Source: Sulfurovum sp.
Lineage (GTDB): Bacteria > Campylobacterota > Campylobacteria > Campylobacterales > Sulfurovaceae
NCBI GenBank assembly: GCA_020721345.1
Contig: DYMX01000011.1
Span: forward strand, 1 to 42,215
Direction of reading: 5' to 3'
Length of the DNA: 42,215 nt
The notes under the pieces are model-generated. The model saw only the letters and a list, made by a program, of their open reading frames with translations. It was not told where the DNA came from and ran no database searches. The position numbers were made by a program, and so were the translations under genes. Positions within the stretch are counted from its first letter, which is position 1. The number at the start of each line of letters is the position of its first letter. Positions 1,901 to 19,443 of the stretch are shown piece after piece.

Positions 1901-1907
1901 CTAACGA

Positions 1908-2258
1908 TTATCCATGGCAAGCACTATTGCTAAGATCGGCATTTTCACTTTTTTCATGGCTATAGGAAAAAAGCAGCTGTATCCTTCCGTCATCCATATT
2001 TGCAGATTCGATGCTATAGTTTTCTTCCACTCTATCAAGCAAGCTCATCGGTTTTTTATGATTGATCATCAAAAGTTTTGTATGTTCATCAACCATTTTA
2101 AGTCCGATCATTGCATTAACCATCGGTTCAGGCGGACCGCATTTGGAAGTATCAAATTCTATGATCTGATCTTCTCCCATTTGGTATTTGAAAAAAGGAA
2201 CCGTAGCTCCTTGCGGCATAAATTCTTCTGCCTCTGCGGGTTTGATTATAGTTTGCAT
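1908..2258 (-). CDS. DUF2249-like domain protein
   Basis: FDTSKCGPPEPMVNAMIGLKMVDEHTKLLMINHKKPMSLLDRVEENY resembles the DUF2249 PPEP...P.pLl pattern. Confidence 0.6.
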   Translation of the reverse strand: MQTIIKPAEAEEFMPQGATVPFFKYQMGEDQIIEFDTSKCGPPEPMVNAMIGLKMVDEHTKLLMINHKKPMSLLDRVEENYSIESANMDDGRIQLLFSYSHEKSENADLSNSACHG

Positions 2259-2295
2259 ATTATTATTTCTCCTATCATTGAATTTAACAGAACGA

Positions 2296-2301
2296 ATTAT
2301 A
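2296..2301 (-). promoter_or_regulatory. -10 hexamer (TATAAT, minus strand)
   Basis: + strand ATTATA; spacing to the FNR box matches class II activation. Confidence 0.65.
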
Positions 2302-2323
2302 ATAAATTTTTTTATTTATAATA

Positions 2324-2337
2324 TTGACCCACATCAA
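2324..2337 (-). promoter_or_regulatory. FNR/CRP-type box TTGA-N6-TCAA at about -41.5 of the leftward promoter
   Basis: TTGACCCACATCAA is a perfect half-site dyad; TATAAT on the minus strand lies at 2301-2296. Confidence 0.75.
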
Positions 2338-2401
2338 GACCTGAAATGTTTATCCATGAAATCCCCGGTCATCTCATCAACCTTCCGCATCCTCATCTTC
2401 C

Positions 2402-2425
2402 CTCGTTCCCATCGATGGGAACGAG
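2402..2425. repeat. 24-bp perfect palindrome CTCGTTCCCATCGATGGGAACGAG
   Basis: Sequence equals its own reverse complement; sits in a divergent intergenic region. Confidence 0.9.
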
Positions 2426-2442
2426 AAAAAAGATAAATCCGT

Positions 2443-2464
2443 CGGTTTACTTTCGGTTTACTTT
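2443..2464 (+). repeat. Tandem 11-bp direct repeat CGGTTTACTTT x2, candidate response-regulator operator
   Basis: Two identical 11-bp units ending 8 bp before TATAAT (2473-2478). Confidence 0.7.
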
Positions 2465-2472
2465 ATGTAAGA

Positions 2473-2478
2473 TATAAT
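2473..2478 (+). promoter_or_regulatory. -10 hexamer TATAAT upstream of the tolC-like operon
   Basis: Exact consensus, 82 bp upstream of the likely TTG start. Confidence 0.5.
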
Positions 2479-2554
2479 TCTATTCGCTAATTCAACAAAA
2501 AGATATAGTTGAAGTTTGGTAGATTTTAAATTAATATTTTTGAAGGAGATCGGG

Positions 2555-3838
2555 TTGAAATATATATATTTATTTTTATCATTCAGCTTTTACATAAATG
2601 CAACGACTTTAAATATAGATGAATTAATCAACAAAGCTATACAATTCAATCCTGATATAAAAACTATGCAAAATCAAAAAAGTATGGATCTACATGATGA
2701 GGATATAGCTAAAAGTTCAAGATTACCGACCCTGAATCTGAACCTAGATTATAGTCCTACAAAAACTTTTGCATTACCTCAGAATGGTCAATTTGCCACG
2801 ATAGATAGCAGCTATAAGCATGCGGACCTCACCTTAAATTATGTATTCTTTGATTTCTTTCAGACAAAATATAGAGTTGAGATGTCAAAAAACAAAACAG
2901 CCATAAGTCAAATAATGCTCAATGATTCCCAAGAACTTTTAGCTTATAAAGTGAAAAAAACATATGACGCTTTGGTCTTGGAAGAGGCTAATAAAAATAT
3001 TGAATTTAAAAACCTAAAATATCACAAAGAACTTTTAGCGCAAGCTAAAGCATTTTATTTAGCAGGATTGAAAACAAGTGCTGATATAGATAGTATAAAC
3101 GCTTCATTGCTTGAAGTAGAAAATTCATTTGTGATTGCGCAATCCAAATTTGAGAAAGCAAAAATCGCTATGCAATACCTCACCGGTGAATCGTTGGGAG
3201 ATGATTTTGTGTTAAAAAATACTTTAAATACAGACCATATGAAAAGCTACTCAGAAAAAGAGGTTGAAATGCTCAAAACGAAGCTTTTAAATAATAATAA
3301 CTCTTTGAAAAGGGCAGACCTGCTGATAAACAATAGCGATACAAATATTGATCTCCAAAAAAGTAAAAGATACCCAGCTGTAAATATTTTTGCAACATAT
3401 GGGTACGAGGATAGCCTTAATAGTTATGATACCAAAGTTGTTGGAGTACATACATCCATATCTTTGTTCGATGGAAACAAGAATAGCGCAGAGGTACAAA
3501 AAGCTTTTATTGAGAAAAGTAAAAATTCAAATGAATATGAATCAAAAAAACACGCTCTAGAGGAGAGTCTTATGGGGCTTTTGATGGACTCGAATAGGTA
3601 TATGTATACAATCGAGGTCAAACAAAATATTATTCATTCAGCGCAAAGCGCTAGAAAGATCATGAATGCTAGATACAAAGAGGGCTTAGCGACATATATA
3701 GAAGTTTTAGATGCTATTAGAGTAGAAAATAGCGCCAAAAAAGCCCTACTGCAAGCAATATTCGAGAGAAATGATATATTAAATACAGTATCTTATCTTT
3801 TAAATGAAAATAATTTCCCAAAGAAGGATAATCTATGA
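2555..3838 (+). CDS. TolC-family outer membrane efflux protein
   Basis: Long helical OEP-type protein; TTG start at 2555 preceded by AAGGAG and followed by a signal peptide (LKYIYLFLSFSFYINA); the ORF as listed starts at 2516. Confidence 0.85.
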   Translation: MKYIYLFLSFSFYINATTLNIDELINKAIQFNPDIKTMQNQKSMDLHDEDIAKSSRLPTLNLNLDYSPTKTFALPQNGQFATIDSSYKHADLTLNYVFFDFFQTKYRVEMSKNKTAISQIMLNDSQELLAYKVKKTYDALVLEEANKNIEFKNLKYHKELLAQAKAFYLAGLKTSADIDSINASLLEVENSFVIAQSKFEKAKIAMQYLTGESLGDDFVLKNTLNTDHMKSYSEKEVEMLKTKLLNNNNSLKRADLLINNSDTNIDLQKSKRYPAVNIFATYGYEDSLNSYDTKVVGVHTSISLFDGNKNSAEVQKAFIEKSKNSNEYESKKHALEESLMGLLMDSNRYMYTIEVKQNIIHSAQSARKIMNARYKEGLATYIEVLDAIRVENSAKKALLQAIFERNDILNTVSYLLNENNFPKKDNL

Positions 3839-4980
3839 AAAAATTTATTTATATCTCCATAGCCGTTGGCTTGATAGTAGGTCTGCTCTTTTATACATTA
3901 GTTTACAAATCTAAATCTACATATGAAACAGCTAAGGTCAAAGCTGGCGGGTTTGATAAGAAAATATTTGCAACTGGAATAGTGGACAGTGAGGTAATGT
4001 ATCAACTATCAGCAGACTCAACAGGCAAAGTCTTGAAGTTGTCAGTAGCAGAGGGTGATTTGGTCAAAAAAGGTCAAACATTGGCAATTATAGATTCTGT
4101 GGACTTGCAAGACAAGCTTAATGAAACGCAGTATAGTATATCCAAAGCCATCTCTAGCCAGAGCAGTTCAAAAAGCAAAATAAATGAAGCTAAAGCCAAA
4201 TATAACTTAGCGTACAAAATGCTAGAGAGATATACTCAATTACGAAAAGGCGGCTTTGTCTCCCAAGTGGAGTTTGATAATATTAAATTAGCAGAGGTCT
4301 CAGCAAAAGCAACATTGGATAGTTCATACAATGAACAACTTTCGTCAGGGGACGAGGTCTCCAGACTAAGCTCAACTCTAGCAGGGCTAAAAGAAAAATT
4401 GCAAACATATGAGATAAAATCCCCTAGCGATGGTGTTGTGGTGCAGACAGATATAGAGCTTGGAGATATTGCCTTGGCTGGTAAAGTTGTCATCAAGATA
4501 GTCAATCCAAAAGATGTTTGGGTGAAAACATTTTTAAACGAATCATCTAGCGGTGAGATAATGAAAGGTCAAAAAGCATATATCTCTCTTCGTTCAAAGC
4601 CCAACCAAAAACAAATAGGCTTTGTGAAGAAAATCGAGATAGTTGGCGACGCAGTAACCGAAGAGAGGATAATAGGCGTATCATTTGAGAAGACTCAAAC
4701 ACAATTTTTTCTCAACGAACAAGCAGAGGTTGATATTGTTGCCAAGCAGTTTAGAAGTGTATTACAAGTACCTGCAAAGACAATTATAAAAGAAAACAAC
4801 AAAGATGGGCTTTGGGCCTATAGAGATGGAGAGGCAAAGTTCGTACCGGTAGAGATATTAGCTAGGGATACTAGCGCAAATATTGTGGCGATAAAAGGCG
4901 ATATAAAAGAGAACGACACAATATTAGTACCAGATACAAACAAGAAACCATTAGCCAATGGAGCAAGTGTGCGAATATGA
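3835..4980 (+). CDS. HlyD/MacA-like efflux periplasmic adaptor subunit
   Basis: N-terminal TM, lipoyl-like TGKVLKLSVAEGDLVKKGQTLAIID, coiled coil, IKSPSDGVVVQTDIELGDIA; overlaps the upstream ORF. Confidence 0.88.
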   Translation: MKKFIYISIAVGLIVGLLFYTLVYKSKSTYETAKVKAGGFDKKIFATGIVDSEVMYQLSADSTGKVLKLSVAEGDLVKKGQTLAIIDSVDLQDKLNETQYSISKAISSQSSSKSKINEAKAKYNLAYKMLERYTQLRKGGFVSQVEFDNIKLAEVSAKATLDSSYNEQLSSGDEVSRLSSTLAGLKEKLQTYEIKSPSDGVVVQTDIELGDIALAGKVVIKIVNPKDVWVKTFLNESSSGEIMKGQKAYISLRSKPNQKQIGFVKKIEIVGDAVTEERIIGVSFEKTQTQFFLNEQAEVDIVAKQFRSVLQVPAKTIIKENNKDGLWAYRDGEAKFVPVEILARDTSANIVAIKGDIKENDTILVPDTNKKPLANGASVRI

Positions 4981-6112
4981 TAAATCTCGCAATAAAAGAT
5001 ATATCACACTCACTTGGTAAGTTTATAGTTACCTCAGTAGGTGTGGGTATGTTGCTTGGTATAGTGCTAATAATGCTAGGCGTTTACCGTGGAATGATAG
5101 TGGATGCTAAGGCACTACTAAACAGTGTAAATGCTGATTTGTGGGTTGTGCAAGAAGATACCATGGGACCTTTGCTGAATCTTCTAGGTTGTTTGAAGAT
5201 GTAAAATATCAAATTAGAAATGTTGAAGGTGTGAGCGAAGCTGCTGCTATGACATTTCAGACTATACAGATACCAACAAGCCTAAAACAAGAACGGGTAA
5301 CAGCTGTTGGATACGAGATAGGTAAAATCGGCAAACCGCAAAATATCATTAGTGGGCGTGAGTTGGCTAGGGAGCATTATGAGATTGTTGTGGATACCAA
5401 GCTGGGCTTTAAACTTGATGATAAAATACCATTAGGAAGAAACATATATACAGTAGTCGGAATTACAAAAGGTGCCGTCTCAAGCTCTGGAGAAGCACTA
5501 GTGTACATAAGTCTAAAAGATGCTCAGCAACTTCAATTTTTGGCCTCAAATGATACCATTAGAAGTGATAGAGCAAGAGGAATAAAAGACACTACAAGCA
5601 CAATAGTGAATACAATAGTTGCCAAAGTATCATCAGGGTATAGCCCAAAAGATATTGCAGAAAATATCAAAAAATGGAAGCATAAAAGTGCTTATACTAA
5701 TGAGAAACAGGTAGAAATTCTAACAAAAAATGTGATAGAGAAATCTTCAAAACAGATAGGTCTATTTACTATTATTTTGATTATCGTATCTTCGGTTATT
5801 ATCTCACTCATTATATACACCATGACCATTGGTAAGATAAAAGAGATAGCTATACTAAAACTCATAGGAATGCCAAATATTGAAATTGTTAAAATGATAG
5901 TCCAGCAATCACTTGTATTAGGATTTTTGGCATTTGTAGCTGGCAATATATTTGCCAATGCAATAAAAAGCAAATTTCCTAAGAATGTCCAGCTACTACC
6001 AGAGGATTCGGTGGGCTTATTTTTTGTAGTCGTTTTAGTAAGCGTCATTGGCTCACTGTTTGGTATATATAAGGCACTAAAGGCAAATCCAGCACAAGCG
6101 ATAGGTGAATAG
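4977..6112 (+). pseudogene. FtsX/MacB-DevC-like ABC transporter permease, frameshifted
   Basis: ORF 4977-5204 gives ...ADLWVVQEDTMGP then shifts; ORF 5141-6112 continues FAESSRLFEDVKYQIRNVEG...; one extra T in the TTT run at 5171-5173 restores a 378-aa ORF. Confidence 0.8.
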
Positions 6113-6113
6113 T

Positions 6114-6824
6114 ATGAGTTCCTTGGCAATAAAAGTAGAAAATTTAAAAAAAGAATACATAACAAAAGATAGTACCTTGCAAGTTATCAAAGGCATAGAT
6201 TTCGAGCTTGAAAAAGGTGAAATAGCGATGCTTTTAGGACCAAGTGGTAGTGGGAAAACAACGCTACTGTTGATGTTAGGATGTATACTAGAGCCAACAA
6301 GTGGAAGAATTACATTAGATGATGAGATTGTTTATGAGGATAGGTGGATACTCAAAGATACTAGGAAACTAAGGAGAGAGAAACTAGGTTTTATATTCCA
6401 AGCACACAATCTAATACCGTTTTTAAATGTGCAAGACAATGTAACTCTTTTACCTCAACTAAACGGAATAGCAGAGGTAGAATATAAGAAAAAAGCAAAA
6501 GAAATTCTGACCTACCTAGGGATAGAAGATAAAACAAATTATATGATAGGAAGTTTATCAGGAGGGCAAAGCCAAAGGGTAGCAATCGCTAGATCTTTGG
6601 CTAATGATCCTCGAATTATATTAGCAGATGAACCAACAGCAGCACTAGATAAAGAGAGGGCAATTTCTGTGATGGAGCTACTGCGAAAACTAGCCAAAGA
6701 ACAAGAAGTGGCTATGATAGTGGTTACCCATGATGATAGACTGTTGCCATATTTTGATAGTGTACTAAAAATAGACGATGGCTATTTAACCAAAACAAAA
6801 GCAAGTGAAACAAAATTGCATTAA
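6114..6824 (+). CDS. ABC transporter ATP-binding protein (MacB/LolD-like)
   Basis: Walker A GPSGSGKTT, signature LSGGQSQRVAIARSLA, Walker B RIILADEPTAALD. Confidence 0.95.
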   Translation: MSSLAIKVENLKKEYITKDSTLQVIKGIDFELEKGEIAMLLGPSGSGKTTLLLMLGCILEPTSGRITLDDEIVYEDRWILKDTRKLRREKLGFIFQAHNLIPFLNVQDNVTLLPQLNGIAEVEYKKKAKEILTYLGIEDKTNYMIGSLSGGQSQRVAIARSLANDPRIILADEPTAALDKERAISVMELLRKLAKEQEVAMIVVTHDDRLLPYFDSVLKIDDGYLTKTKASETKLH

Positions 6825-7029
6825 GTAGGAGAAAATATTCTATCTACAACCTACTGCTTATGTATATAATGATCTAAATTATGATCTAACTTATTCTTTG
6901 TTTCACATAGTTACATCATAAAAATACAAGTTCAAAAAAGTAACAAATAAAACAAAACACTTTAAACAACTTTAGGGTAATATATCTGCATAATAGGGAG
7001 AAATCCCATTATCTTTAAAAGGGGTTGAT

Positions 7030-7419
7030 ATGACACATATTGTGAGTGAACATCCATATTTCGGCGTGTTTGTCCTATTTGTTTTGACATTTGTTGCATT
7101 TAGCGCAACACTGAATTTGCAAAGATTTATCAGTAGAAAGTTAGCTAGACTTGATACGGAAAAACTTAAAATGAGTATATATGAGTGCGGACCTGAAGTT
7201 ACAAAACAGCCAAATACGATTTCAGTTCAATTTTATCTCATTGCATTGCTTTTTATATTGTTTGATGTAGAGATAATTTTTATGTTTCCATGGGCTATTG
7301 ACTTTAAGCCTCTTGGTTGGTTTGGATTTGTTGAGATGATACTATTTATATTATTACTTGCAATAGGATTTGTATATGCATGGAAAAAAGGAGCATTAGA
7401 ATGGCACAGCATCAAGTAA
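7030..7419 (+). CDS. nuoA: NADH-quinone oxidoreductase subunit A
   Basis: YECGPEV...[23 protein letters not shown] signature. Confidence 0.95.
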
Positions 7420-7919
7420 ACTATGCCTCATCTGCGGGGTTGCCTATAGCGCTCACTACTGTAGATAAACTTGTAAACTGGGGAAGATCAAATTCGCTTT
7501 GGCCATTAACTTATGGACTAGCCTGTTGCGCTATTGAGATGATGGCAAGTGGAGCTAGTAGATTTGACTTTGATAGATTCGGTACTATTTTTAGAGCGTC
7601 TCCAAGGCAAGCCGATGTTATGATCCTTGCCGGAACATTGTCAAAAAAACATGCTGAGTTCACAAGAAGACTTTATGACCAAATGGCAGAGCCAAAGTGG
7701 GTTATATCTATGGGAAGCTGCGCAAATACCGGCGGTATGTTCAATACTTATGCTACCGTTCAAGGAGTCGACAGGATCGTTCCGGTTGATATTTATCTGC
7801 CTGGATGCGCCCCAAGACCTGAAACACTCCAATATGCACTTATGATGCTCCAAAAGAAGATCCGTAGAGAATCTGCAAATATGAATAAAAATACAAAACA
7901 AAATCTAAGGTTGATATAA
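7401..7919 (+). CDS. nuoB: NADH-quinone oxidoreductase subunit B
   Basis: [10 protein letters not shown]...[37 protein letters not shown]; start ATG 7401 overlaps nuoA. Confidence 0.96.
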
Positions 7920-8701
7920 TGAGAAAGTACACACCAAAAGATAATGTTCAAGCTAAATCATACTATACCGATAGATTTCATGTTACTCCAAGAGTACCAA
8001 GAAACGAAGTCCAGAGCGGCAGTCATTTTGCAGATGTTGTAAACAGTTTCAAAAAACTTGCGTACGAATCTTATGTAGAATTGGGACAACTTGTTATTCA
8101 TATCAAATCAAGCGATAATATAAAAGTTTTAGAGATATTAAGAGATAAATGCGGATATACTGTTTGTTCTGAGCTTAGCGCAGTTGATTATTTAGCGCGT
8201 GATGGTGAGTTTGAAGTTTTTTATCAAATGCTAAATATGAGCCAAGCCAAAAGAGTCAGAGTAGTTACAAGAATCAAAAAAGACGAAGCAATTGAAAGCG
8301 CGGCAAGTCTTTTTAAGTCGGCAAATTTTGCTGAACGTGAAATGTATGATATGTTTGGCATCGTGGCGAATAATCATCCATATTTGAAGCGAATACTTAT
8401 GCCTGATGATTGGGTTGGACATCCGCTTCTAAAAACATATCCGTTGCAAGGCGATGAAGCTGCAAGCTGGTATGAGGTGGATAAGATATTTGGAAAAGAA
8501 AATAGAGATGCAATCGGACCAGAAAACAGAGATCCTGCAAAAATAGACAGATACGATACGAAAAGATTTTCTAGAGTAGGTTATGAAGTTCCGTTCGGTA
8601 CAGATATAACCCAAGGCGAAAAAGAAAACGATATTGAGTACAGTAAAGCCCAGCTTGCTGATTATACAAAATCACAAAAACAGTTAGATAAAAGAAAGTA
8701 G
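7919..8701 (+). CDS. nuoC: NADH-quinone oxidoreductase subunit C
   Basis: SANFAEREMYDMFGIVANNHPYLKRILMPDDWVGHPLLKTYPL. Confidence 0.95.
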   Translation: MRKYTPKDNVQAKSYYTDRFHVTPRVPRNEVQSGSHFADVVNSFKKLAYESYVELGQLVIHIKSSDNIKVLEILRDKCGYTVCSELSAVDYLARDGEFEVFYQMLNMSQAKRVRVVTRIKKDEAIESAASLFKSANFAEREMYDMFGIVANNHPYLKRILMPDDWVGHPLLKTYPLQGDEAASWYEVDKIFGKENRDAIGPENRDPAKIDRYDTKRFSRVGYEVPFGTDITQGEKENDIEYSKAQLADYTKSQKQLDKRK

Positions 8702-8714
8702 AGGGTAGACAGTC

Positions 8715-9944
8715 ATGCAACAAACCAATAAATTAACCCCATTTTTTGAAAACCTAAATTTTGAGAGAAGTGATAATATGATGGTTATCAACTTCGGTCC
8801 TCAACATCCATCGGCTCACGGACAGCTTAGACTTGTGCTTGAGCTTGACGGAGAAAAGGTGACAAAAGCATATCCTGATATCGGATATCTTCACCGCGGT
8901 ATCGAAAAAATGGCAGAAAATATGACATATAACGAGTTCTTGCCTACAACAGATAGACTTGACTATATAGCATCTACTTCAAACAACTATGCTTACGCGC
9001 ATGCAGTTGAGAAACTTTTAGAGCTTGAAATACCTGAGCGCGCGCAAGTTATCAGAACAATGCTTCTAGAAGTTAACCGTATCATATCTCACTTGTTTTT
9101 CTTGGCAACTCACGCGCTTGATGTTGGAGCAATGTCGTTATTTTTATACGCATTTAGAGAAAGAGAATTCGGTATGGATCTAATGGAAGAGTATTGCGGG
9201 GCTAGGCTTACGCACTCTGCCGTTAGAATCGGGGGAGTTCCTCTTGATTTGCCTAAAGACTGGACTCGCGAGCTTCTCAAATGGTGCGATACCGTTGAGC
9301 ATGAGCTTGCCAATACTTATGAGATGCTGTTAAACGAGAATAGAATTTGGAAAATGAGACTTGAGGACGTCGGTGTTATCTCGGCCGAGGAGGCGCAAAG
9401 CTGGGGGTGCAGCGGTCCTATGCTAAGAGGTTCAGGCGTACAGTATGACATAAGAAAAGAAGAGCCTTATGAACTTTACGGTGAGCTTGAGTTTGATATA
9501 CCGGTAAGCGATAGATGCGACAGTTACGGAAGATATAGATTATATATGGAAGAGATGAAAGAGTCTATTAAGATACTAAGACAGCTTGTTCCGCTCTATG
9601 ACAGATCGGCGCCACAGCTTATGGCGCATGCGCCGCAATACATCTCTGCTCCTAAAGAAGAGATAATGACGCAGAACTATGCTTTAATGCAGCATTTCGT
9701 TCTTGTAACACAAGGCATGAGACCGCCGGTTGGAGAGGTTTACGCCCCAACTGAATCTCCAAAAGGCGAACTTGGTTTTTATATAAAAAGCGAAGGTGAG
9801 CCGTATGCTTATAGATTAAAATGCAGAGCGCCAAGTTTCTTCCATACAGGACTTCTTCAAGAGATCTTGGTAGGCACTTATATAGCTGATGTAGTTACTA
9901 TCATTGGTAGTACAAATATAGTTTTCGGCGAAGTTGATAGGTAA
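8715..9944 (+). CDS. nuoD: NADH-quinone oxidoreductase subunit D
   Basis: [22 protein letters not shown]...[31 protein letters not shown]-terminal [18 protein letters not shown]. Confidence 0.97.
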
Positions 9945-9954
9945 GGGAGAGAGA

Positions 9955-10185
9955 ATGAAAAGATATGATCTAAGACATCTAAAAGATGATTTTTATGACA
10001 AAATGCTAACCCTTATCAAAGGTGACCTAAAAAACAATGAAGTTGGAATCTTTCTTTTTGAAATAGGCGATTTCAGCCATATTCAAAAGAGCGCCGATGT
10101 TGTCAAAGAAGCAGGGCATGAGCTTTTGAATTCACTTAAATTCAATGAAGCGGATTGGACTATAGTCGTTAGGAAAAAAGGCTAA
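9955..10185 (+). CDS. Small nuo-operon protein in the NuoE position (HP1264/Cj1575c-like)
   Basis: MKRYDLRHLKDDFYDKMLTLIKGDLKNNEVGIFLFEIGDFS; no NuoE 2Fe-2S cysteines; likely ATG start at 9955 within ORF 9934-10185. Confidence 0.65.
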   Translation: MKRYDLRHLKDDFYDKMLTLIKGDLKNNEVGIFLFEIGDFSHIQKSADVVKEAGHELLNSLKFNEADWTIVVRKKG

Positions 10186-10187
10186 TA

Positions 10188-12197
10188 ATGGCTAATGTAT
10201 TTTTCTCTACTTGGCAAGGCGAACTAATAGACAACAGAAACAAAAAAGAAGATGAATTGCAGGCAAGCGCATTTTCTTTGCCTGAAAATTATACATCGGA
10301 CAAGTCTTCAAAAGCTTTTATAGGCTGGGATGGCGTAGCGTTATTTGATAAAGATGTTGATGTTGTAAGACTTGCTATGGAATATGCGGCACAGTATCAA
10401 ATCTATTCGGAAGCTTGCGGCAGATGCACACCCGGTAGATGGGGTGGACGAATATTGTATGATCTGCTTGACAAAATAGCAAGAGGAGAAGGAAGTCATG
10501 ATGATATTGCTCATCTAAAAGAGGTTAGCAGCACTATGATGATTACATCAAAATGCGAGATCGGCAAAACAGTACCAAAACCTATACTGGATTTAATGGA
10601 GCATTTTGCGGCCGATTTTAATGATTTGATAGATAACCAAAAAGCATCGCGCCATTATAATGAAGAGATCAACTATATAGCCAAAGTAACTGCCCCATGT
10701 ACCGATATGTGTCCATCTCATGTTGATATACCTGCTTACATAGAAGGTGTTAGGGATATGCAGTTTAGCGAATCTTTGGGTGCGACGAGACAAACTATGC
10801 CTTTAGCGCATACTTGCGGCAGAGTTTGTCCTCATCCATGCGAGGATGCATGCAGAAGAGCAAATTTGGACAGCCCGATTTCTATTATGGAGCTTAAGAG
10901 ACTTGGCGCTGATTATGAAACAGATCACGGGCTTCCATGGCAACACCCTTTTGAGCCAAAAGAGCCGAAAAATGACGGTAAGAAAGTTGCCATCATAGGA
11001 GCCGGTCCTGCAGGACTGACGGCGGCTTATTATTTGGCGCTTGAAGGGATACAGGTAGATATTTTTGAAGAGCTGCCTGTTCTTGGCGGAGAAGTTGCAG
11101 TGGGTGTTCCGCAGTATCGTATGCCTATAGAGAAGTACAATAAAGATATAGTGCTTGTAACTTCTATGCCGACGGTAAATGTTATTACAAACCATCGTGT
11201 TGATGCGGCACGACTCAAAGAGATAGATAGCGAGTACGATGCAACGCTTCTTGCTTTTGGAACAAGACTTTCTAAAAAAATAGGCGCTGCTAACGAAAAA
11301 ATGGATATGGGCGGATATTGGGGCGCTATAGCGATGCTTGACAAAGTAAATCTATGGCATAAATATAGCACAGGAAGCCCTGCAAGCAATGAGCTTAAAG
11401 ATAAGGTTGTTGTATGTGTAGGTGGTGGATTTACCTCGATGGACGTTGTTAGATGTTCTATCAGAGAAGGCGCTTCAAGAGTTGTTATGCTTTATAGAAG
11501 AGATGAAAAAACCATCATAGGCAATACAACATATGAAGAGTATCATGAAGCAGTAGAAGAAGGCGTTGAGTTTATATTTCACTCTGCAATCGAAGAGATT
11601 TTTGATGATGGAAAGAATATCACTAAACTAAAGATCAACCAATATGAGCTTGTTCCTGATCCAAATGGAGGAAGGGCCCAGCTTGTAAAAAGAGAAGACG
11701 GTGATTTTGAAATGGAGTGTGATTATCTAATTCCTGCAGTTTCTCAATCTGCCGATCTTCAACTATTGCCTGCCGAATGGGAGCTTGCTCTTACATCATG
11801 GGAAACCTTGCTCACAAACGGGAAAGATTATATGACAAGCCGCCCTGGACTTTTTGCTGCAGGAGACTGTGAATATGGACCAATGACCATAGTAAATGCA
11901 GTCGGTCAAGCAAAAAGAGCCGCATCCGTTATATCAAAATATATCTATGACGGAAAAGTTTCACTAAGCGATGATGAGATCATGGAAGATCATCTTAAAA
12001 AACTAAAAGTTTATAATAAAAAAGAGAAGATCACAGGCTGGATGCCTGGACTTCCAAGGGTTGTTAGTCAAAAACTTGAAGTAGACGAGAGAAAAGATAA
12101 TAATAAAGAGGTAAATATGGGCTTTACCGGCGAAGAAGCCGTAGATGAAGCGCAAAGATGTATGAGATGTTATTATATTTCAATGGTGGCGGTGTAG
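10188..12197 (+). CDS. NuoF-C-terminal/GltD-like (SfrB-like) FAD/NAD(P)-dependent oxidoreductase fusion in the NuoF position
   Basis: N-terminal CGRCTPGRWGG...SKCEIGK (N3-like), then CTDMCPSHVDIPAY, CGRVCPHPCEDACRR, VAIIGAGPAGLTAAYYLALEG, VVCVGGGFTSMDVVR, GLFAAGDCEYGP, RCMRC; no canonical NuoF FMN motif. Confidence 0.85.
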   Translation: MANVFFSTWQGELIDNRNKKEDELQASAFSLPENYTSDKSSKAFIGWDGVALFDKDVDVVRLAMEYAAQYQIYSEACGRCTPGRWGGRILYDLLDKIARGEGSHDDIAHLKEVSSTMMITSKCEIGKTVPKPILDLMEHFAADFNDLIDNQKASRHYNEEINYIAKVTAPCTDMCPSHVDIPAYIEGVRDMQFSESLGATRQTMPLAHTCGRVCPHPCEDACRRANLDSPISIMELKRLGADYETDHGLPWQHPFEPKEPKNDGKKVAIIGAGPAGLTAAYYLALEGIQVDIFEELPVLGGEVAVGVPQYRMPIEKYNKDIVLVTSMPTVNVITNHRVDAARLKEIDSEYDATLLAFGTRLSKKIGAANEKMDMGGYWGAIAMLDKVNLWHKYSTGSPASNELKDKVVVCVGGGFTSMDVVRCSIREGASRVVMLYRRDEKTIIGNTTYEEYHEAVEEGVEFIFHSAIEEIFDDGKNITKLKINQYELVPDPNGGRAQLVKREDGDFEMECDYLIPAVSQSADLQLLPAEWELALTSWETLLTNGKDYMTSRPGLFAAGDCEYGPMTIVNAVGQAKRAASVISKYIYDGKVSLSDDEIMEDHLKKLKVYNKKEKITGWMPGLPRVVSQKLEVDERKDNNKEVNMGFTGEEAVDEAQRCMRCYYISMVAV

Positions 12198-12198
12198 C

Positions 12199-14442
12199 AT
12201 GAGCATACAAAGACAAGAAAAAAAACCCGTAACTATTACGATCGACGGCAAAGAGTGCATGGGAAGTCAAGGTGAGACGATCTTGAAAATCGCAAGAGCA
12301 AACGGTATATATATTCCTACGATGTGCTATCTTAGTAAAGTTGAGCCGATAGCAAGCTGCCGTATGTGTGTCGTGGAAGTAGAGGGAGTTGAAGGCATGA
12401 TTCTTTCATGCCAAGAAAAAGCAGTAGATGGAGCAGTTGTTAAAACAAGCTCAAAAGATCTTTATACCCAAAGACAAAATATAATGAAGCTCTATAATGT
12501 AAATCACCCGCTAGAGTGTGGTGTTTGCGATAAGAGCGGAGAGTGTGATCTGCAAAACAAAACATTGGAATTCGGCATCTCCCAGCAAAGCTTTACAACA
12601 AGAGAATCCCATAAAAAAGTTGAGAACTGGGGATATGTTTCATATGATCCGGCACTTTGCATAATGTGTGAAAAGTGTGTTAGAGTGTCAAATGAGATAA
12701 CCGGAAATGAAGCGTTAAGCATAAGTGTCGGCGGATATAAATCAACAATAGTAAACAGTAAAAATTTCACTTGCGCATCTTTGGGTGAAAGTGCTGCTGT
12801 TTGTCCTGTGGGTGCACTTGTAAATAGTGATTTCAAATACACTTCGAATGCATGGGAGCTAAAGCGTATTCCGGCGAGTTGCGCACATTGCAGCAGTGTA
12901 TGTTCGCTTAACTATGAAGTTAAAAATGACAAAATATACAGAGTTACCAATAATTTTGAATTTAGTTCGCTTTGCGGGGCGGGCAGATTTGGATTTGATT
13001 TTGAAAATAGAAATGCCGTAAAAGATTTTGAGATATTCAGGGAAGCTGTAAGCGCATTTAAAAGAGCAGATACTGTTCGTTTTTCTGCTGTAATAACAAA
13101 CGAAGAGGCTTTGATATTGCAAAAACTCAAGGACAAATACAAATATAAACTTGTTTGCGATGAGGCTTATGGTTATCAACAATTCCTAAAAGCATACGGA
13201 AGTATCACGGGAGAGACACTTTATAGCGGAGATTTGAATTCTATAAAAGAGTCAAGCGCTGTGATAGTATTTGGCAGCAGAATAAATGATGACAATCCTA
13301 TGGTTAAATACCATATAACAATGGCAAGTAAAAGAAATAGAGCAAGAGTTGCGTATCTTCACCCTATAGAAGATAGCAATATCGGCAATATCGTAACACA
13401 GTTTATCAAATATGAAGCCGGAAGCGAAGAGGGTGTTGCTGCATTGCTTGCAAATACACTTTTAAGCAGCCGTGAGATATCACCGGAGTTAAAAAGCTTT
13501 TTAGATAACCTTGATATAGGCAATCTAAGCGCAGAGAGCAGTGTTGGCGAAGAAGAGCTTACGGCTCTTTTGAAATCTATTGACAAGAAAGATAGGTTGA
13601 CTTTTGTTGTCGGCAATGATATATATAACCACCCGAGAGCAAAAGAGATAGCCAAATTGCTCGGCGCTATAGATAAATACAGTGATTTCAGTTTCGTTAT
13701 TGTTCCTCCTGCCACAAATGCATTGGGAGTATCACTTATCTGTTCGCTTGATGAGAAAGCAGAGGGGTATACGGTAGGGTTTAATTCAAAAGGTAATTTT
13801 GAGCTTAGCAGTTTAGGAGGCGGAGATATGGATATGCCTGCGCTTAATCAACAAGAAGGAACATTGACAAATATCGATAAACGCGTTGTTCCTACAAATG
13901 TTGCGCTAAATTATAACGGATATGTTCTAAATGATATAGCAAATGAACTTGGGTTGAATGCTGAATATACTATCGATTATACTTCTGATCTGCCTGTAAA
14001 ATCCGGCTTCAGATCAGAAGTATTTGACGATCTGCCTTCATATTTTGATAACAGCGGATTTGAGCATAGAGGATATTTGCTGACCTCAAAGAGCATGAAA
14101 GCAGCGCAAGGCTTTGATGATATAGAAGAGTTGCCGACTTTTGACGGAGCGATAGTTTATAATTGTAATGAAAATATAAATATGAATATATTTACAAATG
14201 TTACAAAGGCATTTAAAAGTGATGTAGTTTACCTAAAGGGTTCACCTCAGTTTGCAAATATCGTTAAACTAAAAGATGGCGAAGAGATAATTTTTAGCGC
14301 CAATGGAACTAAATATAAAAGAGTGTTTAAGATCGATGAAAGTATGAAAGGCACTATAGCGCTTAATCCGACATTTGATATGGATTTGCATGCAAGTTTA
14401 AATAGTTCATATAGATTTAGTCATTTAAATAGGGAGCAGTAA
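12199..14442 (+). CDS. nuoG: NADH-quinone oxidoreductase subunit G, paralog 1
   Basis: 2Fe-2S domain CRMCVVEVEG, N5 HPLECGVCDKSGEC, N4 CIMCEKC...CPVGAL, N7-like CAHCSSVC...SLCGAGRFG. Confidence 0.92.
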   Translation: MSIQRQEKKPVTITIDGKECMGSQGETILKIARANGIYIPTMCYLSKVEPIASCRMCVVEVEGVEGMILSCQEKAVDGAVVKTSSKDLYTQRQNIMKLYNVNHPLECGVCDKSGECDLQNKTLEFGISQQSFTTRESHKKVENWGYVSYDPALCIMCEKCVRVSNEITGNEALSISVGGYKSTIVNSKNFTCASLGESAAVCPVGALVNSDFKYTSNAWELKRIPASCAHCSSVCSLNYEVKNDKIYRVTNNFEFSSLCGAGRFGFDFENRNAVKDFEIFREAVSAFKRADTVRFSAVITNEEALILQKLKDKYKYKLVCDEAYGYQQFLKAYGSITGETLYSGDLNSIKESSAVIVFGSRINDDNPMVKYHITMASKRNRARVAYLHPIEDSNIGNIVTQFIKYEAGSEEGVAALLANTLLSSREISPELKSFLDNLDIGNLSAESSVGEEELTALLKSIDKKDRLTFVVGNDIYNHPRAKEIAKLLGAIDKYSDFSFVIVPPATNALGVSLICSLDEKAEGYTVGFNSKGNFELSSLGGGDMDMPALNQQEGTLTNIDKRVVPTNVALNYNGYVLNDIANELGLNAEYTIDYTSDLPVKSGFRSEVFDDLPSYFDNSGFEHRGYLLTSKSMKAAQGFDDIEELPTFDGAIVYNCNENINMNIFTNVTKAFKSDVVYLKGSPQFANIVKLKDGEEIIFSANGTKYKRVFKIDESMKGTIALNPTFDMDLHASLNSSYRFSHLNREQ

Positions 14443-16916
14443 TGGAAGAAATTGAAAATAACGGAATTGTATCATTGATAATTGACGGCAAGATATGTAC
14501 TGCAAAAGAGGGCGAATATATACTTAACGTAGCAAGAGCAAACAGTATATTTATACCCGCAATATGCTATCTTACCAGATGTTCGCCGACACTGGCTTGT
14601 CGTATATGTCTTGTTGAAGCCGACGGTAAAAGAGTGTATGCTTGTAACGCCAAAGTTAAAGATGGCATGAATGTTGTAGTAAGCAATGAAGAGATACTTG
14701 AAGAACGAAAAGCTATTATGCAAGTTTACGATGTAAATCATCCTCTTCAGTGTGGAGTTTGTGACCAGAGCGGTTCATGTGAACTTCAAAATTATACTTT
14801 AGAGATCGGTGTTGATGAGCAGCCATATAGAATTGCAGATGTGCAAAGAGAAAGCTCTAATTGGAGCAGTGTTCTTCATTATGATCCGGCTCTTTGTATA
14901 GTGTGCGAGAGATGTGTTACTGTATGTAAAGATATGATCGGTGACAGCGCTTTGACAACTGGTCCTAGAGGCGGCGAAGGTTTGGATAAAGAGCTAAAAG
15001 ACACTATGCCTAAAGATGCTTATTCTATGTGGAACAAGCTACAAAAATCTGTAATAGCGCCAAGCAACGAAACAGACCAAACCAATTGTAGTGATTGCGG
15101 TGAGTGTATCGCGGTTTGTCCTGTTGGCGCATTAGTAAGTAGAGACTTTGTCTATACTGCAAACTCTTGGGAGCTAACAAAAGTACCGGCAACTTGCGCG
15201 CATTGCAGCAGTGGATGTCAGATCTACTATGAAACAAAACCAACTAGCATTGCAAATAGATATGAAAAGATTTACCGCGTAACTAACGAGTGGAATTATG
15301 TATCTTTATGCGGAGCCGGACGATTTGGATATGATTTTGAAAATAGAACTGCCTCAAAAGATGCAAATGCACTTAAAGATGCGGTTGTTGCTATAAAAAA
15401 AGCAGATGCTATCAGATTTAATTCAGTTATTACAAATGAAGAAGCTCTCATGCTGCAAACGCTAAAAGAAAAGCTAGGTGTCAAACTAATAAATAATGAT
15501 GCAAAAGCATTTAAAGATTTTATGACCTATTTTGCAAATGCGAAAGGCTCAACCCTAAGTAACGGCAATATAAGAACAATGATGCAAGAGAGTGATTTTA
15601 TTATTTCAGTAGGCTCAGCTCTTAGAAACGATAATCCAAATGTTAGATATTTATTTAATAATATTCAAAAGTTAAATAAAGGGGCAGGATTATATTTTCA
15701 TCCGATCGGCGATAAGGTGATAGAAAATCTTGGCAAAAATGTTGCTTGCATTGAAAACAAGATAAATAGCGAAGAAGCCGTACTTTATTGGATACTTGAT
15801 AATTTTGCAGACAAAGAAAAATTGCCTGCAGAAGTAAAAGATTATTTAGCATCACTCTCAACTACCACGAAAAAAACTATAAGTGAAACTGTTATGGAAG
15901 ATGTTGTAGAGACGGTAGTAGATGAAGCGACTGGCGAGAGTAAAGAGGTTACAAAAAAAGTTCCTAAAAAAGTTGACAAAGAGATAGAGGTAAACAAAAG
16001 CAAACTTCTTGAAATATTTGGAGCTCCTAGTGATTTTGCCGATACCATAGAGAAATTCTTAGCAAAAAAAGAGAATTTTTCATTGGTTGTAGGCGAGGAT
16101 CTTTATTTTCATCCACGATCAAAAAATCTTGCGATCCTTGTGGCATTGATTGAAAGTACAACACCGTTTAACATCGCTATCATTCCTCCTAAAACAAATT
16201 CATTAGGAGTATCTTTGATCTGTGATCTTGATGATGAATGCAGCGGATATGTTATCGGTTACAACGAAGTAGGAGATTTCAGATTGAGCGCTTTAGGTGA
16301 CGGCGATCTTGATATGCCGGCAATGAACCAGCAGGAAGGAACATTGACAAATATGCACAAACGTGTAGTGCCTACAAATGCCGCGCTTAGCTATAATGGA
16401 TATATATTAAATGATATTCTAAATGAACTCGGCATGGGCGAAAGATTGACGATCGACTGGACAAAAGAGCTGCCCGTCAAAGAAGGTTTTGAAGCGCGAG
16501 AATTTGATAGTTTACCAAACGGTTACAATAATGACGGAAGCGAAAATAGAGGATATGGTTTAAAATCTCAAAAGGTTAAGGCTACAGAATCTTTACCTAA
16601 AGAGATAAGTTCAAACGAGATGAGCGCCGATGTAATGGCGTATAGATGCAATCCTCAAAGACAATTCAATGAGTTTACCGCAACTGCCCATCAAATATTT
16701 GAGCCATTCGCTCTATATGCAAGTGAAGAAAAAGCCAGTGAACTTGGCAGCAGGGTTGCGATCGATCTAGACGGCACGGAATTTGTTTTGGATGTTAAAA
16801 TCGATGACAGAATGAGCGGGGATATAGTAAAACTTCCTGATTTTAAACACTCTTTTGAGATTTACAAATTTTTTGGACAAAATAGATTTAAATCTATATC
16901 CATAAGAAAGGCATAA
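14442..16916 (+). CDS. nuoG: NADH-quinone oxidoreductase subunit G, paralog 2
   Basis: CRICLVEADG, HPLQCGVCDQSGSC, CIVCERCVTVC...CSDCGECIAVCPVGAL, CAHCSSGC...SLCGAGRFG. Confidence 0.92.
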   Translation: MEEIENNGIVSLIIDGKICTAKEGEYILNVARANSIFIPAICYLTRCSPTLACRICLVEADGKRVYACNAKVKDGMNVVVSNEEILEERKAIMQVYDVNHPLQCGVCDQSGSCELQNYTLEIGVDEQPYRIADVQRESSNWSSVLHYDPALCIVCERCVTVCKDMIGDSALTTGPRGGEGLDKELKDTMPKDAYSMWNKLQKSVIAPSNETDQTNCSDCGECIAVCPVGALVSRDFVYTANSWELTKVPATCAHCSSGCQIYYETKPTSIANRYEKIYRVTNEWNYVSLCGAGRFGYDFENRTASKDANALKDAVVAIKKADAIRFNSVITNEEALMLQTLKEKLGVKLINNDAKAFKDFMTYFANAKGSTLSNGNIRTMMQESDFIISVGSALRNDNPNVRYLFNNIQKLNKGAGLYFHPIGDKVIENLGKNVACIENKINSEEAVLYWILDNFADKEKLPAEVKDYLASLSTTTKKTISETVMEDVVETVVDEATGESKEVTKKVPKKVDKEIEVNKSKLLEIFGAPSDFADTIEKFLAKKENFSLVVGEDLYFHPRSKNLAILVALIESTTPFNIAIIPPKTNSLGVSLICDLDDECSGYVIGYNEVGDFRLSALGDGDLDMPAMNQQEGTLTNMHKRVVPTNAALSYNGYILNDILNELGMGERLTIDWTKELPVKEGFEAREFDSLPNGYNNDGSENRGYGLKSQKVKATESLPKEISSNEMSADVMAYRCNPQRQFNEFTATAHQIFEPFALYASEEKASELGSRVAIDLDGTEFVLDVKIDDRMSGDIVKLPDFKHSFEIYKFFGQNRFKSISIRKA

Positions 16917-16917
16917 T

Positions 16918-17928
16918 ATGGACGCATTAACGATAGGAACAATAATAAAAATATTGATAATTTTAGCAATTGTATCAGCAATTGCAGGATTTGGAACATA
17001 TATTGAAAGAAAAGTACTTGCATTTATGCAGCGCCGTCTTGGACCAATGCATGTAGGTCCTTACGGACTCTTGCAAATCGCAGCCGATGGTATAAAGCTG
17101 TTTACAAAAGAGGATATCATTCCTCAAAATGCAAATAAATTTATATTTTCATTAGCTCCGGTAATAACTGCTGCAACGGCATTTATTGCTATGGCGGCAT
17201 TGCCGCTGTTTCCAACATTTACAATACCTGAATTTCTTCCACTCATTGGAGGTGCCATAGTACCTTCTATTGTTGCAGATATAAATATAGGCATATTGTT
17301 TATACTTGGAATAATGGCTGCAGGTCTTTACGGTCCGCTTCTTGCAGGTATGGCCCAATCAAATAAATGGGGCATCATAGGGTCTGCAAGAACGGCAGTT
17401 CAATTTTTAAGCTACGAAGTTGTTACCGGACTTTCTGTTTTGGCTCCTATTATGCTTGTAGGATCCCTTTCTTTAATTGATTTTAATGACGCTCAAGCAA
17501 GCGGGATTGGCTCATGGCTAATCTGGCAGCAGCCAATAGCATTTGTACTGTTTTTGATAGCAGGCTTTGCCGAAACTAACAGAACACCATTTGACCTATT
17601 GGAGCATGAAGCTGAAATTATTTCAGGTTATGTAACTGAGTACAGCGGTCTTAGATGGGGCATGTTCTTTATAGGTGAGTATGCAAACATGATAACTATC
17701 TCAGTTATTGCGGCAGTTGTATTTTGTGGCGGTTATAATGATCTATGGTTTATATCAGGATGGCTTTTATTTGTACTAAAAGTTATTTTCTTTTTCTTTT
17801 TGATGTTGTGGGTGAGAGCCGCTTGGCCGCATGTTAGACCCGATCAAATGATGTGGTTATGCTGGAAAGTATTGATGCCGTTAGCCGTGATCAATATAGT
17901 AATAACCGGCATCGTAGTAATGCTGTAA
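16918..17928 (+). CDS. nuoH: NADH-quinone oxidoreductase subunit H
   Basis: YIERKVLAFMQRRLGPMHVGPYGLLQIAADGIKLFTKEDIIP; AETNRTPFDLLEHEAEIISGYVTEYSG. Confidence 0.97.
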   Translation: MDALTIGTIIKILIILAIVSAIAGFGTYIERKVLAFMQRRLGPMHVGPYGLLQIAADGIKLFTKEDIIPQNANKFIFSLAPVITAATAFIAMAALPLFPTFTIPEFLPLIGGAIVPSIVADINIGILFILGIMAAGLYGPLLAGMAQSNKWGIIGSARTAVQFLSYEVVTGLSVLAPIMLVGSLSLIDFNDAQASGIGSWLIWQQPIAFVLFLIAGFAETNRTPFDLLEHEAEIISGYVTEYSGLRWGMFFIGEYANMITISVIAAVVFCGGYNDLWFISGWLLFVLKVIFFFFLMLWVRAAWPHVRPDQMMWLCWKVLMPLAVINIVITGIVVML

Positions 17929-17942
17929 AGGGAGGAAGAAAT

Positions 17943-18578
17943 ATGGCACATATTGAAGAACATAAAGATACGCAGGCTATCCAAAGAGAGAAGCAAAATT
18001 ACATAATGCTTGATTTGGGAAAAACTCCGCAGTTCGGCATACCTGCATTTATTCAGGTTGTAAAAAGAAGTTTAAGCAGAGAGCTGCTCAAAGGTCTTGG
18101 CGTAACATTTAGAGAGATGATAAATGCTCTATTTAAGGGCAAATTGCATACAACACAGTATCCATTTGAAAAATTGCCGATAGCGCCAAGATATAGAGCT
18201 ATACATGAAATGCTAAGGCTGCTTGAAAGCGGACACTATAGATGCATAGGATGCGGACTTTGTGAAAAAATTTGTATTTCCAATTGTATAGCAATGGAGA
18301 CAAGATATGATGAAAATCAAAGAAAAGAAGTGAGCGAATATACTATCAATTTCGGTCGTTGTATATTTTGCGGATATTGCGCTGAAGTATGCCCTGAGCT
18401 TGCAATCGTTCATGGCGGAAGATATGAAAATGCAAGTGAACAAAGAGCAGGGTTCTCGCTGTTTGAAGATATGCTAACACCTATCGATAAGCTAAAAGAG
18501 CAAAATGAGTTTGCGGGATTTGGAAGCATTAGTCCAAATGCAGATGAAAATATCAAAAAAACACCACTTGCATACTAG
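17943..18578 (+). CDS. nuoI: NADH-quinone oxidoreductase subunit I
   Basis: Two 4Fe-4S motifs CIGCGLCEKIC and CIFCGYCAEVCPELAI; ATG 17943. Confidence 0.95.
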   Translation: MAHIEEHKDTQAIQREKQNYIMLDLGKTPQFGIPAFIQVVKRSLSRELLKGLGVTFREMINALFKGKLHTTQYPFEKLPIAPRYRAIHEMLRLLESGHYRCIGCGLCEKICISNCIAMETRYDENQRKEVSEYTINFGRCIFCGYCAEVCPELAIVHGGRYENASEQRAGFSLFEDMLTPIDKLKEQNEFAGFGSISPNADENIKKTPLAY

Positions 18579-18587
18579 GAGCGAAAT

Positions 18588-19142
18588 ATGTTTGAACAAA
18601 TTGCATTTTATTTTTTTTCAGTCCTAACAATAGGGCTGTTCTTGGTTACCGTATTTAGTAAAAATGTTTTATACGCTATGACATCGCTTGCCAGCGGTAT
18701 GGTAGTAATTGCAGGATTTTTCTTTTTAGTTGGGGCTGACTTTTTGGGAGTCGTCCAACTTATAGTTTATGTCGGTGCGGTTATGGCGCTTTACGCATTT
18801 GGTATGATGTTCTTTAATGTAACAAAAGACCTTAAAGAGAAGAATACATCAAATATCTGGGTCATGATAGTTGGCGTAACTGTTGCGCTTTTGATGACCT
18901 TAATGTTTGTTGGAGCTATCAATCCGGATGCGATCTATGCATCATTGCCTATGAGTGATAAAATGAACAATCCTGAAGCAGTTGGAATGGCATTATTTAC
19001 AAAGTACCTCGTTCCTTTTGAGGTTGCTGCAATTATGTTGCTTATAGCAATGATCGGCGGTATCGTATTGGCAGGTAAGAAAATGGATACTAGCTTGACC
19101 AACATAGAAGATGAAGTATTACAACAAAAGGATGCAAAATGA
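18588..19142 (+). CDS. nuoJ: NADH-quinone oxidoreductase subunit J
   Basis: Membrane protein with ADFLGVVQLIVYVGAVMALYAFGMMFFN. Confidence 0.94.
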   Translation: MFEQIAFYFFSVLTIGLFLVTVFSKNVLYAMTSLASGMVVIAGFFFLVGADFLGVVQLIVYVGAVMALYAFGMMFFNVTKDLKEKNTSNIWVMIVGVTVALLMTLMFVGAINPDAIYASLPMSDKMNNPEAVGMALFTKYLVPFEVAAIMLLIAMIGGIVLAGKKMDTSLTNIEDEVLQQKDAK

Positions 19143-19441
19143 TCGGATTGAATCATTATTTAATTTTATCAGGAATACTATTTACCATCGGTCTTATCGG
19201 TGTTCTTAGAAGAAGAAACCTGCTTATGCTTTTTTTCTCAACCGAGATAATGCTAAATGCTGCAAATGTTGCTTTTGCCGCAATTTCAAATTTTTATCAT
19301 GACCTATCAGGACAGATGTTCGCATTCTTTATAGTCGCGATTGCAGCTAGTGAAGTTGCTATCGGTCTGGGACTATTGATACTTGTTTATAAAAAAGAAA
19401 ATACACTGGATCTTGATGATCTTGCGTCTATGAAAGGATAA
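19139..19441 (+). CDS. nuoK: NADH-quinone oxidoreductase subunit K
   Basis: RRNLLMLFFSTEIMLNAANVAF...AASEVAIGLGLLILVY. Confidence 0.96.
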   Translation: MIGLNHYLILSGILFTIGLIGVLRRRNLLMLFFSTEIMLNAANVAFAAISNFYHDLSGQMFAFFIVAIAASEVAIGLGLLILVYKKENTLDLDDLASMKG

Positions 19442-19443
19442 CC

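Follow-up and report, generated by a model that had tools for sequence, protein, structure and literature searches.

A fusion flavoprotein at the NuoF position of complex I operons in Campylobacterota is a candidate NADP(H) entry module

Where do electrons enter a complex I that has no canonical NuoF? The question is raised by a contig of Sulfurovum sp. (DYMX01000011.1), of which a stretch of 42,215 nucleotides (the window) was analysed. At the nuoF position of its nuo operon (7030–24353, forward strand) lies an ORF in which a NuoF-type region is fused to a GltD-type flavoprotein (Table 1). The operon is tight, with the gene order A-B-C-D-X-fusion-G1-G2-H-I-J-K-L-M-N and gaps of at most 13 nt; the fusion ORF is 2 nt from the upstream nuoX and 1 nt from the downstream nuoG1. 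For nuoI, the ATG at 17940 is a likelier start than the listed GTG at 17853. The host genome is 1.24 Mb and 98.9% complete, and the whole-genome absences reported here rest on sequence searches; among named organisms, Sulfurovum and Sulfurovaceae metagenome-assembled genomes are nearest to it. This variant of complex I is genuine and conserved and is informative about mechanism, and the fusion is probably the nucleotide-exchange subunit of this proton-pumping enzyme, which would connect NADP(H) through FAD and NuoG1 to menaquinone. Elsewhere in the window, an ABC-transporter permease (4962–6112), located between its adaptor (3835–4980) and ATPase (6105–6824), is split by a frame change near 5140–5200, indicating either a broken gene or an assembly error.

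Table 1 Genes of the nuo operon and regions of the fusion flavoprotein in the window
Feature	Position	Strand	Basis or content
nuoA	7030..7419	+	First gene of the operon; position and sequence
nuoB (N2 cluster subunit)	7380..7919	+	Position and sequence
nuoC	7919..8701	+	PF00329, 1.5e-38
nuoD	8715..9944	+	PF00346, 2e-103; TIGR01962
nuoX (76 aa, NuoE position)	9955..10185	+	PF16514, 2.3e-39; phmmer 1.1e-26 to 2lxr_A
Fusion flavoprotein (669 aa)	10188..12197	+	NuoF N3-type helical region and GltD/StnC-type FAD, NADP(H) domain; two predicted 4Fe-4S clusters
NuoF-type N3 region (aa 73–145)	10404..10622	+	PF10589, 5.7e-20; C77, C80, C123; Gly83 replaces the third ligand
Fer4_20 region (aa 168–247)	10689..10928	+	PF14691, 4.2e-23; C171, C175, C210, C214, C218, C222, Lys237; invariant
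Two Rossmann folds (aa 265–575)	10980..11912	+	Pyr_redox_2, 8.7e-23; FAD fold GAGPAGL; dinucleotide fold GGGFTSMD...YRR (R437, R438); R311
C-terminal RCMRC (C658 and C661)	12156..12170	+	Permuted GltD N-terminal ligands
nuoG1 (first NuoG paralogue)	12199..14442	+	Fe-S half and C-terminal half; NF006305, 838.8 bits
nuoG2 (second NuoG)	14442..16916	+	Full Fe-S set; in both operon types; NF006305, 1103 bits
nuoH	16918..17928	+	Operon reading
nuoI	17940..18578	+	NF004542, 1e-95, from residue 46 of the longer frame
nuoJ-K-L-M-N (membrane arm)	18588..24353	+	Includes antiporter-like pumping subunits; operon reading

The fusion shares with canonical NuoF (bovine 51 kDa subunit, E. coli) the C-terminal N3-type domain and the place in the operon. 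However, a Pfam search of the ORF finds no PF01512, in agreement with the sequence-only reading, made before any database search, that the FMN/NADH domain is absent. NuoF models of NCBIfam cover residues 32–158 only, and the best NCBIfam models are GltD-like (PRK12771, 7.6e-109, from residue 146). The same reading had described an N3-type cysteine region joined to a GltD-type domain. The two parts are borne out by PF10589, PF14691, and Pyr_redox_2, but the N3 site is one cysteine short, with three cysteines rather than the four of canonical NuoF. In the motif C77-G-R-C80-x-P-G83...C123, the third ligand is replaced by glycine in 39/39 aligned copies and in all 79 rows of a second set. Lacking one ligand, the site may not hold a normal 4Fe-4S cluster; an unusually ligated cluster or no cluster is possible. 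The AlphaFold model of the fusion, of moderate confidence overall (pLDDT 73) and of low confidence near the Fe-S regions, shows the N3 region as a helical bundle, indicating that the fold is retained.

The remainder of the protein has the cysteines of Fer4_20 and the GAGPAGL and GGGFTSMD folds, which confirms the earlier assignment of its own 4Fe-4S cysteines and of two dinucleotide folds. It corresponds to GltD, NfnB, and the N-terminal module of dihydropyrimidine dehydrogenase, with the same two predicted 4Fe-4S clusters and the same FAD and NADPH folds. In contrast to these proteins, the fusion has one cysteine pair at the C-terminus, and its partner would be NuoG, not GltB or NfnA. The RCMRC pair, cysteine in 39/39 copies, matches the N-terminal ligands of GltD and NfnB, with residues 624–661 of the query aligned to residues 8–45 of 5vj7.

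Among proteins of solved structure, subunit A of NfnABC (9bov, 9n5u) and StnC (8oh5) are closest in both sequence and fold, followed by NfnB, GltD, and dihydropyrimidine dehydrogenase. NfnA and StnC have the same GltD-type FAD/NADPH domain, an RCxxC after the domain, and coupling to NuoG-like clusters. In StnC, NADPH reduces the FAD, which passes electrons to a proximal 4Fe-4S cluster partly ligated by Lys170 and on to a NuoG-like chain; the enzyme requires R239 to be active, and the FAD is non-bifurcating (PMC10482914). Counted along the sequence alignment, K237 of the fusion corresponds to K170 and R311 to R239; both are invariant in 13 diverse copies and in 80/80 further rows. The architectures differ, however. 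In NfnABC and StnABC, GltD is inserted in a NuoG-like polypeptide, and the enzymes are soluble and bifurcating, with a NuoF-like FMN subunit, whereas here GltD is joined to a NuoF N3-type region, NuoG is separate and duplicated, and the genes lie in the operon of a membrane complex I.

The identity of the nucleotide is suggested by the second Rossmann fold. It is followed by an invariant YRR motif (R437, R438), common to StnC and NfnB. The StnC- and NfnB-like invariant residues support NADP(H), short of proof; a preference for NADP over NAD is plausible, based on the short YRR motif and on the relatives. The fusion could instead be a complex I subunit that uses NADH, making the enzyme a plain NADH:quinone oxidoreductase with a different flavoprotein. 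Specificity is easily switched in this superfamily, which leaves room for NADH. In addition, the second Rossmann motif reads GGGFTS and thus departs from the usual GxGxxA, which in StnC has been proposed to favour NADP(H) (PMC7483475). However, the invariant YRR is shared with StnC and NfnB, both of which use NADPH, and in the relative C. jejuni respiration is reportedly supported poorly by NADH as a donor (PMC4178425). We therefore consider NADH as the partner quite unlikely.

The partners that accompany StnC-type subunits are missing. No PF01512 was found in the host genome, and the best match to PF01257 scores 19.5 bits, under the cut-off of 24.8; counterparts of the NuoF-like StnB and the NuoE-like StnA are thus absent. 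A canonical nuoEF elsewhere in the genome, which the sequence-only reading had named as evidence against its proposal, was not found by these searches. That reading was right that no NuoE-like 2Fe-2S protein is encoded above the cut-off but overlooked NuoX at the NuoE position. NuoX has no cysteine and is homologous to HP1264 of H. pylori (PDB 2LXR), for which FMN binding in a new fold has been reported (PMC6269979). Being cysteine-free, NuoX cannot be counted as a NuoE of the 2Fe-2S kind, although it does occupy the NuoE position.

NuoX offers a possible second entry point. Ferredoxin may be the main donor, acting through NuoX or the extra NuoG clusters, with the fusion as an auxiliary ferredoxin:NADP+ or confurcating branch. 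Consistent with such a role, flavodoxin or ferredoxin use has been reported for relatives without the fusion (PMC6682613, PMC4585668), NuoX and NuoG2 occur in both operon types described below, and R311 also corresponds to R201 of NfnB. However, the StnC-type FAD with its Lys-ligated cluster has been reported to be non-bifurcating (PMC10482914), and the absence of PF01512 from the genome leaves no bifurcating FMN subunit of the HydBC/StnAB type. Ferredoxin as the main donor is accordingly unlikely. A flavodoxin-fed complex I has been reported in C. jejuni (PMC4178425); no PF00258 flavodoxin was found in the host genome, so that this route looks unavailable here.

The gene order of 78 nuo loci provides a further line of evidence. 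NuoX-fusion-NuoG1-NuoG2 occurs in 42 loci (some cut by contig ends) and NuoX-NuoY-NuoG2 in 35, so that 77/78 loci have one of two types and the two are never mixed. The second type is represented by L041–L051, L057, L062–L065, L067–L073, L077–L080, L083, L084, L086, and L099–L103. The complex I of C. jejuni and H. pylori has the same operon layout, a PF16514 NuoX, and a NuoG2 of the same family, but has no fusion and has a cluster-free NuoY where the window has the fusion and a full NuoG1. The 78th locus (L066, in genome G080 of genus g19, family f2; 1431–4099) has NuoX followed directly by NuoG2; having lost NuoY as well, this locus is reduced one step further.

In all 42 loci of the first type, the fusion gene lies between nuoX and nuoG1. 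Among 80 further fusion loci, NuoG1 is next in 73; of the other seven, five stop within the fusion gene or at its end, one continues into non-nuo DNA, and in one NuoG1 is preceded by a fusion ORF split in two. The nuoX-fusion-nuoG1 arrangement is found wherever the contig reaches, with the exception of L184 (9882–11300), in which nuoX precedes the fusion and nuoG1 is absent. L184 is the only fusion locus that continues without NuoG1, and a CRISPR-like repeat array follows soon after the fusion gene; it represents a mis-joined metagenome-assembled genome or a rearrangement.

NuoY, the known NuoF replacement at the position of Cj1574c and HP1265, is related to NuoG1. It is homologous to NuoG1 residues ~350–747 except for a central segment that it lacks (hhalign E 1.7e-48, probability 100), scores 360 against NuoG1 and 177 against NuoG2, and has the motif LDxGYLSAES...EEE in common with NuoG1. 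The NuoG family PRK08493 detects three of four NuoY proteins, and no Pfam family matches NuoY proteins above cut-off. NuoY has no conserved cysteine, with at most 7/35 sequences having one in any alignment column, which makes it unlikely that the published electron uptake from flavodoxin proceeds via Fe-S cofactors of its own. The possibility that NuoY derives from the N3 part of the fusion was dropped, as NuoY matches the C-terminal half of NuoG1 instead.

NuoG1 itself is a close paralogue of NuoG2 (43% profile-profile identity over 730 columns). The eight dicluster cysteines of NuoG2 are kept in 72/72 sequences. In the window, NuoG1 has lost the second 4Fe-4S site of the ferredoxin-like domain (S164, L195, S198), a loss seen in similar form in four other loci (L053, L059, L061, L097); judged from these residues, the window NuoG1 has come to resemble, by convergence, ordinary NuoG with its single-cluster N4 pattern.

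On a tree of NuoD, NuoG2, and NuoH (73 loci, 1549 columns), the fusion/NuoY state changes at least seven times, all changes being forced by supported branches. In a tree built from the part that NuoG1 and NuoY have in common, the NuoY sequences lie beside the NuoG1 of their own families: NuoY from genome G208 is paired (97/81) with NuoG1 from G096, a member of the same genus, and the NuoY sequences of family f6 group with f6 NuoG1. A single NuoY clade, as expected from one origin and subsequent spread, is rejected (AU p = 0.0011; 0.0024 without four long-branch rows). Gain of the whole cassette by transfer would change the state, yet would leave the nesting of NuoY beside the local NuoG1 unexplained. 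We infer several joint losses of the fusion and the Fe-S half of NuoG1, the C-terminal half being left each time as a structural piece, and that NuoY is thus a cluster-free remnant of NuoG1 that arose in parallel. G208, a genome of the window's family, has two nuo loci (L057 on contig C9 and L051 on contig C59); in one of them, NuoY groups with family f10, suggesting transfer or contamination.

In every loss, the fusion disappeared along with the clusters of NuoG1, as would be the case for a single electron path. Given that the two operon types are never mixed and NuoY is a NuoG1 remnant, the fusion acts with the Fe-S half of NuoG1 as a single module for electron input. That the two are wired together is supported mainly by the parallel co-loss of the fusion with the cluster-bearing half; that the pair is part of complex I is supported mainly by the survival of the other half in complex I operons.

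The latter observation bears on whether the fusion and NuoG1 could form a soluble, co-transcribed NADPH:acceptor oxidoreductase that does not feed complex I. The top NCBIfam match of the fusion is the GltD-like PRK12771, of which SfrB is presumably a member. The resemblance to SfrB noted in the earlier reading applies to the GltD part. PRK12771 aligns from residue 146 (profile position 25) with a score of 364.8 against a cut-off of 516, so that the N3 part is not common to proteins of this model, and the closest solved proteins are those of NfnABC and StnABC instead. Geobacter SfrAB is a like pairing of a NuoG-like with a GltD-like protein and is soluble, and StnC is likewise assembled from similar parts in a soluble enzyme (PMC7483475). 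However, NuoG1 is closely related to NuoG2, and its C-terminal half persists as NuoY in complex I operons that have no fusion, which argues against a stand-alone enzyme. In accordance, a report on C. jejuni assigns Cj1574c, at the NuoY position, a role in passing electrons to complex I (PMC4178425). In addition, complex I without the fusion would have no identified nucleotide entry in the host genome. A soluble enzyme is therefore rather unlikely, and the fusion is best described as a probable subunit of complex I.

As such a subunit, the fusion would exchange electrons between NADP(H) and FAD in its GltD/StnC-type domain. The FAD would then reduce the two 4Fe-4S clusters of the fusion, the FAD-proximal one being probably ligated by three cysteines and Lys237, and electrons would proceed through the Fe-S half of NuoG1, NuoG2, NuoI, and NuoB to menaquinone, with the membrane arm pumping protons. 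The NuoF-type helical domain may dock the fusion on NuoG1, as NuoF docks on NuoG, and perhaps carries a modified three-cysteine cluster; the ligand missing from the N3 site makes the geometry of the wire uncertain. NuoX with FMN would be a separate possible entry for ferredoxin or flavodoxin. A three-way, flavin-branched complex I, in which the doubled NuoG wire joins NADP(H), entering at the fusion's FAD, with ferredoxin, entering at the FMN of NuoX, is very unlikely. If true, quinone reduction and pumping would be coupled to both pools, with confurcation in the forward direction and energised reduction of NADP+ and ferredoxin in reverse.

The direction of electron flow is suggested by the gene content of the host. 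Neither PntB nor, besides a GltD adjoining gltB, a second NfnB-like protein was found in its genome, and ATP-citrate lyase is encoded. Together with the missing PF00258 flavodoxin, this makes reverse electron transport from menaquinol to NADP+ a natural role. In autotrophs without transhydrogenase, the complex is probably often run backwards for NADPH, with the proton motive force likely driving NADP+ reduction from menaquinol. Over 298 genomes, the fusion co-occurs with ATP-citrate lyase (Fisher 7.6e-35), which was not detected in 18 fusion genomes; the correlation is strong but largely phylogenetic. A strict link between fusion and autotrophy is not significant with independent pairs (about 2/7 for, 0 against, the rest undecided).

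The reading proposed here suggests how autotrophs of vents and redoxclines that use the rTCA cycle (Sulfurovum, Sulfurimonas, Nitratiruptor) could link the quinone pool to NADP(H). It also gives NuoY, which replaces NuoF in Campylobacter and Helicobacter, an origin, as the piece of a NuoG duplicate left after an NADP(H)-type module was discarded; NuoY would then be read as structural, not redox-active, and complex I as a case of repeated swapping of the electron-input module. No description of the fusion or of the origin of NuoY was found in the open literature, where neither the descent of NuoY from NuoG1 nor its repeated, parallel emergence seems to have been described; subscription papers lay outside the search, so an earlier mention is possible. 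The domain swap is lineage-wide and visible in public sequence, so that it is new mainly as an interpreted system.

A protein search finds the fusion in 81 of 298 Campylobacterota genomes, with up to 85% identity in other species, indicating that it did not arise by chance; the survey, on which the sequence-only reading had made novelty depend, places the fusion across the lineage and not in the host genome alone. Named carriers among the matches listed are Sulfurovum, Sulfurimonas, Sulfuricurvum, Nitratifractor, Nitratiruptor, and Hydrogenimonas. In a search of genome contigs, the best 80 fusion loci are all from Campylobacterota; rarer occurrence in other phyla is possible. Among the 298 genomes, NuoX is found in 242 and PF01512 in 59, and no association of the fusion with a separate PF01512 protein was seen. 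Longer fusion ORFs (open frames of 726–966 aa) are present in 7 of the 81 carriers, and in the examples examined the additional residues form an insert that separates the GltD part from the N3 region. Family f2 includes a genus, g44 (L039 of G286, 5812–8595; L076 of G294), in which a long polar-rich linker at this site extends the fusion to ~928 aa.
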